Source: Terriglobales bacterium
GTDB lineage: Bacteria > Acidobacteriota > Terriglobia > Terriglobales > Acidobacteriaceae
Assembly (NCBI GenBank): GCA_035624455.1
Contig: DASPRM010000022.1
Coordinates: 1-64,000 of the forward strand
Direction: 5' to 3'
DNA: 64,000 bases
Part shown: in pieces, positions 59,120 to 63,294 of the stretch
Position numbering within the stretch: the stretch's first letter is position 1
Layout of the letters: each line of letters begins with the position of its first letter
Position numbers and translations under genes: made by a program
The notes under the pieces: generated by a model
What the model saw: the letters and a program-made list of their open reading frames with translations, nothing else
Database searches by the model: none
What the model was told of the DNA's origin: nothing

Positions 59120-59956
59120 TCAGTGAATAGACAGGGTATCACTACCACTTGTGCGGGAGGATGACTCGGGAAACAGGCGGGGGCGCTCGGGCAAAGAGTA
59201 CACCCAACGACGGGTGTAAGGGTGAACTGGATGATGCAGGATCTGAGTAGTGGCGCCGCATTCCACTACCTGGCCATCGTGCAGAATAGCGATTCGATCG
59301 CACGCGGACAATGACAGGAGATCTCGAGAGAGGTACAGAATACTGAGATTGCGCTCTCGGTTCAGCTTGCTCAGGAGAGCGAAGATCTCTGCCTGGTTGA
59401 CACCATCCACAGTGCTGCTGAGGTCATCCACAATCAGCAAGCAGGGATTGTGGAGCAGGGCCATGGCGATCAGTATGCGGACTAACTGGTCTGGAGACAG
59501 TATTGTGGTGTGACGGCGAAGAAGTTCCCGGTCCGGCAAACCGCTTGCTGTCAATGCCTCCATGATACGCTGGTGCGCTTCAGCATAACTGGACGCAGCA
59601 TGAGCGTTCCAGGCGGCAAGCAATTGCTGGCCAATGCACAGGGCAGGATTGAGAGCGGTCATTGCGTTTTGTGGAACCAGCGCGATCTCTTGTCCGCGAA
59701 TCTCACGCAGCTTGCGCGCATCGAGCTTAAGAAGGTCTCCCCCCTGGAAAACAATCGAGCCCTCGGTGGCGCCGCTGGTCTGAGGAATCAGCCGCAGCAA
59801 GGCGGCAGCGAGCGTGCTCTTACCCGATCCGCTTGCTCCTGCCAGGCCCAGAATCTCACCTGCGCGTAACTGCAAAAACAGGTTGCTGAGTACCGGACTG
59901 CGGCCGCGATAGCTGACCGTCAGCGCCAACGATATGAGGGAGTCATAGGAGGTCAT
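59120..59956 (-). CDS. OppD/DppD-like ABC ATPase with degenerate catalytic motifs
   Basis: 278 aa of the peptide/nickel importer type. Walker A is intact (GASGSGKST, 40-48), as is the Q-loop (LVPQN, Gln96) and the terminal HHPVHPYTRRWVYSLPE typical of OppD. But the signature is LSPDQ (153-157) rather than LSGGQ, the Walker B reads LLIVDD (Asp178 where the catalytic Glu should be), and the H-loop reads LYLSRDL (Arg211 instead of His). Weak or no hydrolysis is inferred. ATG 59956 overlaps the permease stop (ATGA). The frame continues open upstream but that part overlaps the permease gene and is a shadow. Confidence 0.82.
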   Translation of the reverse strand: MTSYDSLISLALTVSYRGRSPVLSNLFLQLRAGEILGLAGASGSGKSTLAAALLRLIPQTSGATEGSIVFQGGDLLKLDARKLREIRGQEIALVPQNAMTALNPALCIGQQLLAAWNAHAASSYAEAHQRIMEALTASGLPDRELLRRHTTILSPDQLVRILIAMALLHNPCLLIVDDLSSTVDGVNQAEIFALLSKLNRERNLSILYLSRDLLSLSACDRIAILHDGQVVECGATTQILHHPVHPYTRRWVYSLPERPRLFPESSSRTSGSDTLSIH

Positions 59957-60747
59957 GAGACGGCCGGCTCCTCCCGCGAGAGCAATAGTTGGAGGATGAG
60001 GAGCAGGGCCAGCAAAGCGAGCAGCAAAATGGCGCTCCAAATGCCGCTGAGACTGGTGAGGAATTTGCTCAAGTGCTGAACGTCGAGCCTGGGCGCTGTT
60101 TCGCCCAAGCCTACTCCCAGCAGGACCAGTCCAGCTTCGCCGAGGATAAAAACGAAGAGAGAAATCCAGAATTGCGCCAGCAGGATCGGTTTCAGGTACG
60201 GAAAAACATGCGTAGTGAAGAGCAATATCCCATATTGTCCAGAGGCTCGGGCATGCAGAACGAAAGCGGAGTCTCTGAGTTTGCGCGCAGCATTCGAGAT
60301 CACCGGAGTCGAGGCCACGAAGCCAACTTGAACGAGCGGAATCAGGATAAATCCGACAGAGCGGAAGCCAGCGGGTGCGGAAAGCACGGTGGAGGTTAGC
60401 AGCAGCAACAGCAGCCACGGGATTGCTAGCAGGATTGCCGTGATGGTCTGGGCGGCCCGCTCCCACCGCCCAGCGAGATAACCGGCCAAAATGCCAGTCA
60501 GCCCGGATGCTACTGTGGACAGGAGCGCGGCTAATGGCGCCAGCCATAGACCCAGCAGCATTTCTTCGGAACCGCGGGAATGATCGGAAAATGGCCCGAT
60601 CGGGCCTGAGTGGTGCGGAGTGGGGGGAATGATCAGTGCGGCGCCATGCAAATCATGGTGCAGCATGGGAACGCGTATCTCGCTGGCGGCCGACGTGACG
60701 GTTAGCAGCGCCAGCAAAACCACGACGGCTTGTGTCCTCTGCCGCAT
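59953..60747 (-). CDS. OppC/DppC-like ABC permease, orphan
   Basis: 264 aa from the ATG at 60747 (a GTG at 60765 is also possible). After a first hydrophobic segment comes a Pro/His-rich periplasmic loop (PPTPHHSGPIGPFSDHSRG), then the usual DppC core: GLWLAPLAALLSTVASGLTGILAGYLAGRW, the EAA-like loop KLRDSAFVLHARASGQYGILLFTTHVFPYLKPIL, and LGEAGLVLLGVGLGETAPRL. The usual partners OppB, a binding protein and a second ATPase are absent. Coupled to the ATPase gene by a 4-nt overlap. Confidence 0.8.
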   Translation of the reverse strand: MRQRTQAVVVLLALLTVTSAASEIRVPMLHHDLHGAALIIPPTPHHSGPIGPFSDHSRGSEEMLLGLWLAPLAALLSTVASGLTGILAGYLAGRWERAAQTITAILLAIPWLLLLLLTSTVLSAPAGFRSVGFILIPLVQVGFVASTPVISNAARKLRDSAFVLHARASGQYGILLFTTHVFPYLKPILLAQFWISLFVFILGEAGLVLLGVGLGETAPRLDVQHLSKFLTSLSGIWSAILLLALLALLLILQLLLSREEPAVS

Positions 60748-60810
60748 TTCACGAATGCAATTCACTAACGCAATTCACTGCATCTCACAGTCGTTGATCG
60801 TGCCTGGCAA

Positions 60811-63294
60811 TTACTCATTTCCTCTCGCTAATTCAGGCTCTGCGGTCAGAGGCTTTATCTCCTCACTCTTCCTGTGATGCTGCTGCTTCATGATGTACAT
60901 CCGACGATCCGCTTCGGCCAAGAGCTGGTCACCATCGGTGCCATCCTCGCCGTAATAGGCCATTCCCGTACTCACGGAGAGCCGGTCAGTGCCGCAAACC
61001 TGATGTCCGGCCTCGCGAGCCAGTTGATCGAGGACGGCAATTTTGTCGGCAGCCGCCTCATGCTTTAAACCAGGGGCAATGATCACGAACTCGTCGCCGC
61101 CCATGCGCGCGACGTAGTCGTACTCGCGGCAGACGGAGCGCACGCCATGACCGAATGAGCGGAGAACTTTATTGCCCTCGAGATGGCCAAACCGATCATT
61201 GATCTCCTTGAAGCCGTCGAGGTCACAAATCAAGACCGCCATATCCGCGCCCGTTCGTTTGCAGCGCGCGATTTCCTGATCGAGATGCAGGAACAGTGAG
61301 CGGGCGTTGGGAAGGCCAGTTAGGTAGTCGGTAGTGGCCGAGTTTTCCGCCTGCTGGTACTTGAGGGCGTTTTCCACCGAGAGCGCGACCTTGGAGCTGA
61401 CCGCGAGCATGATACGCAGGTGGTCAGACGTAAAGGCGTCGCCCTCCCCCTTGTACAGGGTGAGCACGCCGACTACTCCGGAGAGCGCTTCCAGGGGCAC
61501 GGCAAGAGCAGAGCGCAGTGGGCTGAAGCGGGCGTCGCTCGGATATCCGGGTTCACATGCCGGATCGCCGTTCACGATGGGCTTGCGATGAGCCGCCACC
61601 CAGCCGGACACGCCCTCGCCCACGGGAATCTGCAGCGAGGAAAATACGCGAAAGTTATCACCGCTGACGTGCTCGGGAACCAGCACGTGTTCGCGCAATA
61701 CATAAATGGCGATGGAATCGTAGGGAATGAGCTTGCGCAGCCGCACGGACAGAACTGATAGGGTGTCGTCCAAGCTGAGGGAGTTGCCGAGCTCATGGCT
61801 CAACTCGAAGAGGGTTTGGGCTTCTTGCCTGGCGGCGGCGATGGAGGATAGGAAATTGCCGTCAGTGATGACGTCCAGCGGTCGCAGCTTTTCGGGAGCA
61901 AACCCAGACGCAGGTGCGGCCGCGTTGCTCAGGCGCAGGTCGGTGGAGAGACGCTGTCGCCCGGCGCCGGTCATCTGGGTTTGCGCCAGCTTCTCCAGTT
62001 CCAGGTAGCGGCGCTTGAGCACATCCACCACCCGCGGGTCGAACGCCCTTCCCGATTCGGCTGCTACGACCTCCATAGCTTCCGGAAGCGGCACCGCGCG
62101 ACGGTACTGGCGGTGGGAGTTGAGGGCATCGAGACAATCCACCGCGGCAAGAATGCGCGCGCACATGGGAATTTCTTCGCCACGCAGGCCATAGGGGTAT
62201 CCGGAACCATCCCATCTCTCATGGTGTGCGCGGACGATGGGGACAACGGGGTAGGGAAAGTTCACGCGCTCCAGAATCTCTGCTCCTACCAGGGGATGGA
62301 TTTTCATCTTCTCGAATTCTTCGGGGGTGAGTTTTCCCGGCTTGTTGATGATGTGCTCCGGGATAGCGAGCTTGCCAATGTCGTGCAGCAGTGACGCCGC
62401 GCGCAGGGCCTCGATTTCGTCTTTGGGAACTTCCAGTTCTTTGGCAACCTCCAATGCGTAGACTCGGACGCGCTGGAGATGGTCGAAGGTGCTGTGATCC
62501 TTGGCTTCGATGGCCAGCGCCAGGGCTTCGATCGTGCGCAGGTGCAAGGAAGCAATGCTTTCGACGTGATCCTTCTCCTGTGAAAGGCGGCGCAGATAAA
62601 CGCGGTAGGAGCGATACGTCCAATAAATGATCGGTAACACCAAGAGCGAGGTCTGCCAGCCGATCAGCACATTGATGTAGCTGACCAGGGCAGCCACACC
62701 TGCACCCAGCAGGTAGTAGGGCAAAGACCAGAAATGTCCGTCGTGCCACACTCGACGAAACGCTTTGTTCTGGGTGAGTGCGGTTAAAGCCGCTGCGAGC
62801 GCACTGCCGGTCACGAAATAAGCAAAGGCCGCGGCCAGAAGAACCAACGTGACGCTATGTCCGAAGGGCTGAGCAATGCGGTGATAAACGCCATAAGAGA
62901 CGGCGATAGCGACCGCGGTGTTTGCCAGCTGAAAAATAAGTTGGGCATACCTGGGCCTCTGCTTGAGCTTCCACAGGCTCTGCACAAGCACTGGACTGCA
63001 GCCCATCAACATTGTTTGCGGAAGGGTCAGCTCAGAGATGCCGATGAGGATGAATAAAAAATTGACCGAGATCGAGCCAGTGAGACCGGGAAGGCTTACG
63101 CGCAAAGTGGAGGCTAGCAATGCCACCAGCAGATAGGCGCAAAAGCGTAGGGGATCAGCGTTCTGCCAATTGGCAGCACTCCAGGCGATCACGCCGACGC
63201 CGGCAATGACTTGCAGGATCCAGAAAGCCCTGGCCCGAAAGGGCATGACGAGTGGCTGCGCCTCCCCAGGGGTTAGTGGCATGCAGACGGCCAT
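60811..63294 (-). CDS. Membrane HD-GYP / GAF / GGDEF cyclic-di-GMP protein
   Basis: 827 aa. Residues about 20-235 hold 6-8 membrane helices (MASE-like sensor). Then an HD-GYP phosphodiesterase with LLHDIGKLAIPEHIINKPGKLT (about 300) and AHHERWDGSGYPYGL (about 358-372), a GAF domain (about 500-650: YDSIAIYVLREHVLVPEH, GVSGWVAAHRKPIV), and a GGDEF cyclase with intact MGGDEFVII at about 730 and LICDLDGFKEINDRFGH. Both synthesis and breakdown motifs are complete, so it may switch between activities. No RxxD inhibitory site is evident four to five residues before GGDEF. Confidence 0.93.
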   Translation of the reverse strand: MAVCMPLTPGEAQPLVMPFRARAFWILQVIAGVGVIAWSAANWQNADPLRFCAYLLVALLASTLRVSLPGLTGSISVNFLFILIGISELTLPQTMLMGCSPVLVQSLWKLKQRPRYAQLIFQLANTAVAIAVSYGVYHRIAQPFGHSVTLVLLAAAFAYFVTGSALAAALTALTQNKAFRRVWHDGHFWSLPYYLLGAGVAALVSYINVLIGWQTSLLVLPIIYWTYRSYRVYLRRLSQEKDHVESIASLHLRTIEALALAIEAKDHSTFDHLQRVRVYALEVAKELEVPKDEIEALRAASLLHDIGKLAIPEHIINKPGKLTPEEFEKMKIHPLVGAEILERVNFPYPVVPIVRAHHERWDGSGYPYGLRGEEIPMCARILAAVDCLDALNSHRQYRRAVPLPEAMEVVAAESGRAFDPRVVDVLKRRYLELEKLAQTQMTGAGRQRLSTDLRLSNAAAPASGFAPEKLRPLDVITDGNFLSSIAAARQEAQTLFELSHELGNSLSLDDTLSVLSVRLRKLIPYDSIAIYVLREHVLVPEHVSGDNFRVFSSLQIPVGEGVSGWVAAHRKPIVNGDPACEPGYPSDARFSPLRSALAVPLEALSGVVGVLTLYKGEGDAFTSDHLRIMLAVSSKVALSVENALKYQQAENSATTDYLTGLPNARSLFLHLDQEIARCKRTGADMAVLICDLDGFKEINDRFGHLEGNKVLRSFGHGVRSVCREYDYVARMGGDEFVIIAPGLKHEAAADKIAVLDQLAREAGHQVCGTDRLSVSTGMAYYGEDGTDGDQLLAEADRRMYIMKQQHHRKSEEIKPLTAEPELARGNE

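Follow-up and report, generated by a model that had tools for sequence, protein, structure and literature searches.

The closest described systems to the locus considered here are the Opp/Dpp/Nik peptide and nickel ABC importers, which are built from SBP_bac_5, BPD_transp_1 and ABC_tran plus oligo_HPY domains, and it is to these domain families that both proteins of an OppC/OppD-like gene pair in a Terriglobales bacterium belong. Unlike these importers, the pair is without a binding protein, a second permease, the catalytic glutamate and the H-loop histidine. ABC transporters with a degenerate nucleotide-binding site, such as MRP1 and TAP, are treated in two papers (PMC9898250, PMC12422388), and a search of the literature for the present pair returned nothing. 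How, then, is such a pair to be understood? We consider it probable, on balance, that it is a lineage-specific remnant of a four-gene importer which has lost two of its genes and would no longer transport, its still open frames reflecting residual constraint, recent inactivation or both.

The locus

The pair is found in the window, the name used here for the whole stretch of 64,000 nucleotides that was analysed, and sits inside a 65.8-kb contig of a draft genome in 166 contigs. Its features are as follows (K is the selection exponent introduced below).

59120..59956, minus strand: degenerate OppD-like ABC ATPase, 278 aa (ABC_tran, motif alignment, AlphaFold)
59953..59956, minus strand: ATGA overlap of the oppC stop and the oppD start (sequence); the binding-protein gene sits here in relatives
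59953..60765, minus strand: highly diverged OppC-like permease, 270 aa (BPD_transp_1, conservation, AlphaFold)
60766..60810, minus strand: 45-nt spacer from the GGDEF-gene stop to the oppC GTG start; a whole oppB (about 860 nt) is here in relatives
60811..63294, minus strand: HD-GYP-type/GAF/GGDEF gene, the conserved upstream neighbour of the operon, under normal constraint (Pfam, synteny, K 1.00)

The 475-aa open reading frame assigned to 59120-60547 is an upstream extension of the OppD frame, the true OppD start being the ATG at 59956, and OppC begins either at the GTG at 60765 or at the ATG at 60747. Both frames are open over about 1.65 kb, with no stop codon and no net frameshift. Pfam assigns ABC_tran to the OppD-like ORF (1.8e-20) and BPD_transp_1 to the OppC-like ORF (4.4e-09), which is the domain combination of an Opp/Dpp-type importer; the oligo_HPY match of the OppD-like protein lies below the Pfam cut-off, and the closest NCBIfam models, NikD/OppD/DppD-like for the ATPase and Opp/NikC-like for the permease, both score far below theirs. 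The neighbours are those originally predicted, with the c-di-GMP enzyme encoded by the GGDEF gene upstream and a response regulator gene downstream.

The operon in related genomes

Genomes of the same bacterial family were searched with OppC and OppD, and 52 orthologous loci from 51 other genomes were read. As far as the contigs extend, the genes run in the order GGDEF gene, oppB, oppC, a family-5 binding protein (SBP_bac_5) and oppD; OppD with the binding protein upstream of it is present at all 52 loci, oppC and oppB wherever the contig extends to them, and the HD-GYP/GGDEF gene lies upstream of the operon in most. The GGDEF gene was unmatched in the stretch read for 11 of the 52 loci, in at least five of which it adjoins on the opposite strand. 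In a tree of the GGDEF protein the window is sister to locus L052 (UFBoot 97), which argues for vertical descent.

Some matches in the relatives contain stops. In L058 the HD-GYP/GGDEF gene shows a single in-frame stop, and in G129 its match (C7:97584-100007) contains two TAGs, possibly reflecting pseudogenes or match edges. One stop is also counted inside the matched OppD stretch at G072:C24:11099-11905 and at G135:C521:9123-9923 (L159, L166), where the extracted frames have no internal stop, and the one counted is probably the stop that ends the gene, close to the limit of the match.

The Walker B Asp-Glu and the H-loop histidine are canonical in all 52 of the relatives' OppDs. The signature of these family OppDs (L051-L062, L140-L179) is SVGQ instead of the usual SGGQ, exactly so at 49 of the 52 loci, with SVGL at two and STGQ at one. 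None of the 52 shows a pair reduced and substituted as in the window, a search of 398 family genomes with OppC gave nothing above 45% identity, and a scan of genome contigs for a closer relative gave just paralogues at 27-38%; the genus of the source bacterium is represented by this genome only. The original prediction was of a pair that might regulate or sense, and it named canonical motifs in relatives, the mark of a decaying copy, as counting against it, which is what the relatives show. Because all 52 related loci are canonical (with a near-canonical signature), and have oppB and the binding protein where the contig reaches, the window holds a lineage-specific reduced copy and not a conserved sensor. 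Nothing found points to regulation or sensing, and the c-di-GMP neighbour is the ancestral neighbour of an intact importer.

The operons read in the relatives each have one OppD-type ATPase, which suggests that OppD acts as a homodimer. The lack of a second ATPase near the pair had been correctly noticed but, since the relatives are alike in this, it is the ancestral state rather than a loss.

The 4-nt overlap between the two genes had been taken to mean that the pair is maintained. In the relatives such overlaps occur at 44 of 49 oppB/oppC, 43 of 50 oppC/SBP and 21 of 52 SBP/oppD junctions, counts which accept ATGA, GTGA or TTGA in the right frame and may run too high where the start codon is uncertain; at the sister locus L052 all three junctions are ATGA. 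If the gene for the binding protein were cut out from between two ATGA junctions, exactly the overlap seen in the window would result. The overlap is thus no argument for maintenance, because 4-nt junctions are the inherited style of the operon, although the open frames and the rejection of neutrality described below leave part of that claim standing. The wider caution is that a 4-nt gene overlap is no evidence of a maintained gene pair.

Among the loci compared only the window is without oppB and the binding-protein gene. As predicted, neither is near: tblastn of contig positions 50000-65812 gave no OppB or binding-protein homologue at E<=1, spacer remnants included. The suggestion that complementary genes might lie elsewhere was not borne out, as no oppB or binding-protein orthologue was found in the 97.7%-complete genome, where OppB is represented by distant paralogues of other cassettes. 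No intact second copy of the operon was found either, and the source genome seems to be without one. The best genome-wide matches (binding protein 39%, OppB 28%) belong to the separate C68 Opp cassette. This cassette (L063, G000:C68:52000-66000) is complete, with OppB, OppC, binding protein, OppD and OppF and with canonical motifs in both ATPases, and its genes share only about 27-45% identity with their counterparts in the window operon. At 60748-60820 of the window a short ATG frame (ATGAGTAA) overlaps the GGDEF stop behind AGAGG, and near the oppC start GTGAAATGCG resembles ATGAAACGCG of L052; these are perhaps traces of the deleted oppB, and are too short to judge.

The ATPase and the permease

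Judged by its motifs, the OppD-like protein would not be a catalytically competent ATPase. Its signature is LSPDQ, in which SPDQ replaces the SVGQ of relatives, its Walker B is VDD, with Asp177 kept and the glutamate changed to aspartate (E178D), and its H-loop is SRD in place of SHD (H211R). The Walker A motif GASGSGKST is intact, and Gln96 (within PQNA) and the D-loop Asp184 are retained; the altered triad and the preserved Walker A and Q-loop agree with what was first read from the DNA. The product may still bind ATP, and with the catalytic residues missing its hydrolysis of ATP should be poor or absent. Near-invariant columns are altered at 16 of 60 positions, and the altered ones are weakly concentrated in the catalytic region (10/26 vs 6/34, Fisher p 0.085). 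The AlphaFold model, made with a 20-sequence alignment of orthologues, has a mean pLDDT of 87.9, and the product probably still folds.

The permease has changed more widely, with 30 of 63 near-invariant columns altered; for the GGDEF protein the count is 11 of 218. OppC is best kept in the EAA/coupling-loop region (about 151-210) and in part of the transmembrane core, and stretches 31-70, 131-150 and 211-245 are far from the consensus. Its AlphaFold model (20 orthologues) has a mean pLDDT of 70.6, good around 71-210 and poor at 31-60 and 222-240. Because the relatives' sequences guided the models of both proteins, these say only that the folds are not contradicted. The transmembrane hydropathy of OppC is matched equally well by constraint and by about 0.1-0.2 per site of neutral drift.

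Selection on the window branch

On the topology of the GGDEF tree, the tip lengths of the window and L052 are 0.52 and 0.27 for GGDEF, 3.22 and 0.28 for OppC, and 1.30 and 0.34 for OppD. The OppC-to-GGDEF tip ratio of 6.2 places the window far outside the other 34 tips, which reach at most 1.8; the corresponding OppD ratio of 2.5 is at the top of the range and not outside it. A two-class codon model, in which omega at the window tip is raised to an exponent K, was fitted to 12 sequences. The fitted K is 0.48 for OppC (2 delta lnL 29.7, p 5e-8) and 0.62 for OppD (2 delta lnL 19.2, p 1e-5), 1.00 for the neighbouring GGDEF gene and 0.83-1.52 for three control tips, values that come from a home-made model of a single tip, with synonymous sites near saturation (2-3 per site) and an uncertain alignment of the OppC loops. 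OppC and OppD are under relaxed constraint on the window branch, and the adjacent GGDEF gene is not.

Relaxed constraint is not the same as none. A branch that was neutral throughout is rejected (2 delta lnL 75.4 for OppD and 46.8 for OppC), and omega on the branch averages about 0.21 and 0.26 for the two genes of the pair, well below 1 and not near it as in a pseudogene. Uniform relaxation fits better than a switch from normal constraint to neutrality, by 5.6 (OppD) and 4.0 (OppC) lnL units with an equal number of parameters. If constraint had been normal before, the best shared neutral tail would be about 0.2 substitutions per site, and such a tail leaves both frames free of stops in about 0.1-0.3% of simulations, indels not being counted. 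Adding a neutral tail to the relaxed model gives no improvement; tails of up to about 0.06 substitutions per site are compatible with it, and at about 0.06 there is an 8-13% chance, approximately, that both frames stay open. The pair is thus not a plain pseudogene yet, since whole-branch neutrality is rejected and a neutral tail of the length needed to account for the altered conserved residues would rarely leave the frames open; nor has it any stop or net frameshift. The codon analysis that had been proposed for the pair therefore gives a divided answer, with neutrality rejected and constraint relaxed.

Compensated frameshifts were also considered as a source of the odd motifs. A frameshift-aware alignment hinted that the frame had shifted in two places, around the Walker B/D-loop in OppD and in OppC's RAxLPLN segment, and the idea was rejected, substitution-only simulations giving an equal or larger gain in 32/60 cases for OppD and, marginally, 3/60 for OppC.

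Origin of the pair

The probable starting point is an ABC importer of family 5 (peptide/nickel type) with four genes, oppB-oppC-binding protein-oppD, inherited downstream of the HD-GYP/GGDEF gene. Two of the four, oppB and the gene for the binding protein, would then have been deleted in the lineage leading to the window, the second deletion leaving oppC joined to oppD through one ATGA. The leftover pair would have been unable to import, and its ATP-hydrolysis residues and much of the OppC consensus may then have been lost under relaxed selection. It would carry out no transport now, and its open frames may be due to weak residual constraint, to a recent final inactivation, or to both. We infer the order of these events, and the loss of hydrolysis and of transport, from the missing residues and missing subunits. 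Counting against a remnant are the open frames, the rejection of neutrality over the whole branch, the low omega and the improbability of a long neutral tail.

It is from these same open frames and rejected neutrality that the main rival draws its strength. Here selection would maintain OppC and a catalytically impaired OppD as a membrane complex that binds ATP, hydrolyses it slowly or not at all, and has taken on a new role, for instance in sensing or scaffolding near the c-di-GMP enzyme. The better fit of uniform relaxation than of constraint followed by neutrality agrees with this, as do the retention of Walker A, the Walker B aspartate, Gln96 and Asp184 while the glutamate and the H-loop histidine have gone, and the place of the coupling-loop region among the best-kept parts of OppC. 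However, the pair is seen in one genome only, its changes spread across much of OppC, those at invariant OppD columns gather only weakly in the catalytic region, and neither a new domain nor a partner gene is present, the GGDEF neighbour being ancestral. We therefore regard repurposing as a tentative and rather unlikely explanation. That the importer was cut to an OppC-OppD half-transporter which binds ATP without hydrolysing it, and which has been selected as a membrane-bound nucleotide switch co-transcribed with the c-di-GMP enzyme, appears more doubtful still.

Might the pair still transport with the help of another Opp cassette, C68 for example, that would lend it OppB, a binding protein and an active ATPase? 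The complete C68 set with its canonical ATPases is present in the genome, and examples are known of heterodimeric ABC transporters in which one site is degenerate, but the cassette is a distant one, it does not need the pair because it has its own OppC and both ATPases, and the window OppC has lost much of its consensus, all of which makes borrowing very improbable. Least credible is an artefact of assembly or sequencing, in which the deletions or odd motifs would come from a misassembled contig, since although the assembly is a draft of 166 contigs and only this genome shows the pair, the locus sits within a contig of 65.8 kb, the substitutions run along the whole length of both proteins with the frames still open, and the frameshift-aware signal is no higher than in substitution-only simulations for OppD and marginal for OppC.

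On the preferred reading of a lineage-specific remnant, the pair is a decaying or possibly repurposed leftover and not a new kind of system. Its value is that it catches an ABC importer partway through its breakdown, where two genes and the catalytic residues have gone while the remaining frames are open and some constraint is left. If that constraint postdates the deletions, the case would be one of an ABC pair that gave up transport and took on another role.

Comparison with known systems

In the degenerate-site ABC transporters MRP1 and TAP, as in the window OppD, catalytic residues are lost and ATP-binding motifs are kept. These transporters retain a second, competent site in the same transporter, whereas the window locus encodes no partner ATPase. 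In comparison with the oppB-oppC-SBP-oppD operons of its own family, such as L052 and L051, the window is without two genes, oppB and that of the binding protein, its catalytic motifs are degenerate, and its OppC and OppD are about 38% and 52% identical, respectively, to those of the sister L052. Yet it is alike to these operons in the upstream HD-GYP/GAF/GGDEF gene, the order of oppC then oppD, the 4-nt overlaps and the single OppD-type ATPase.
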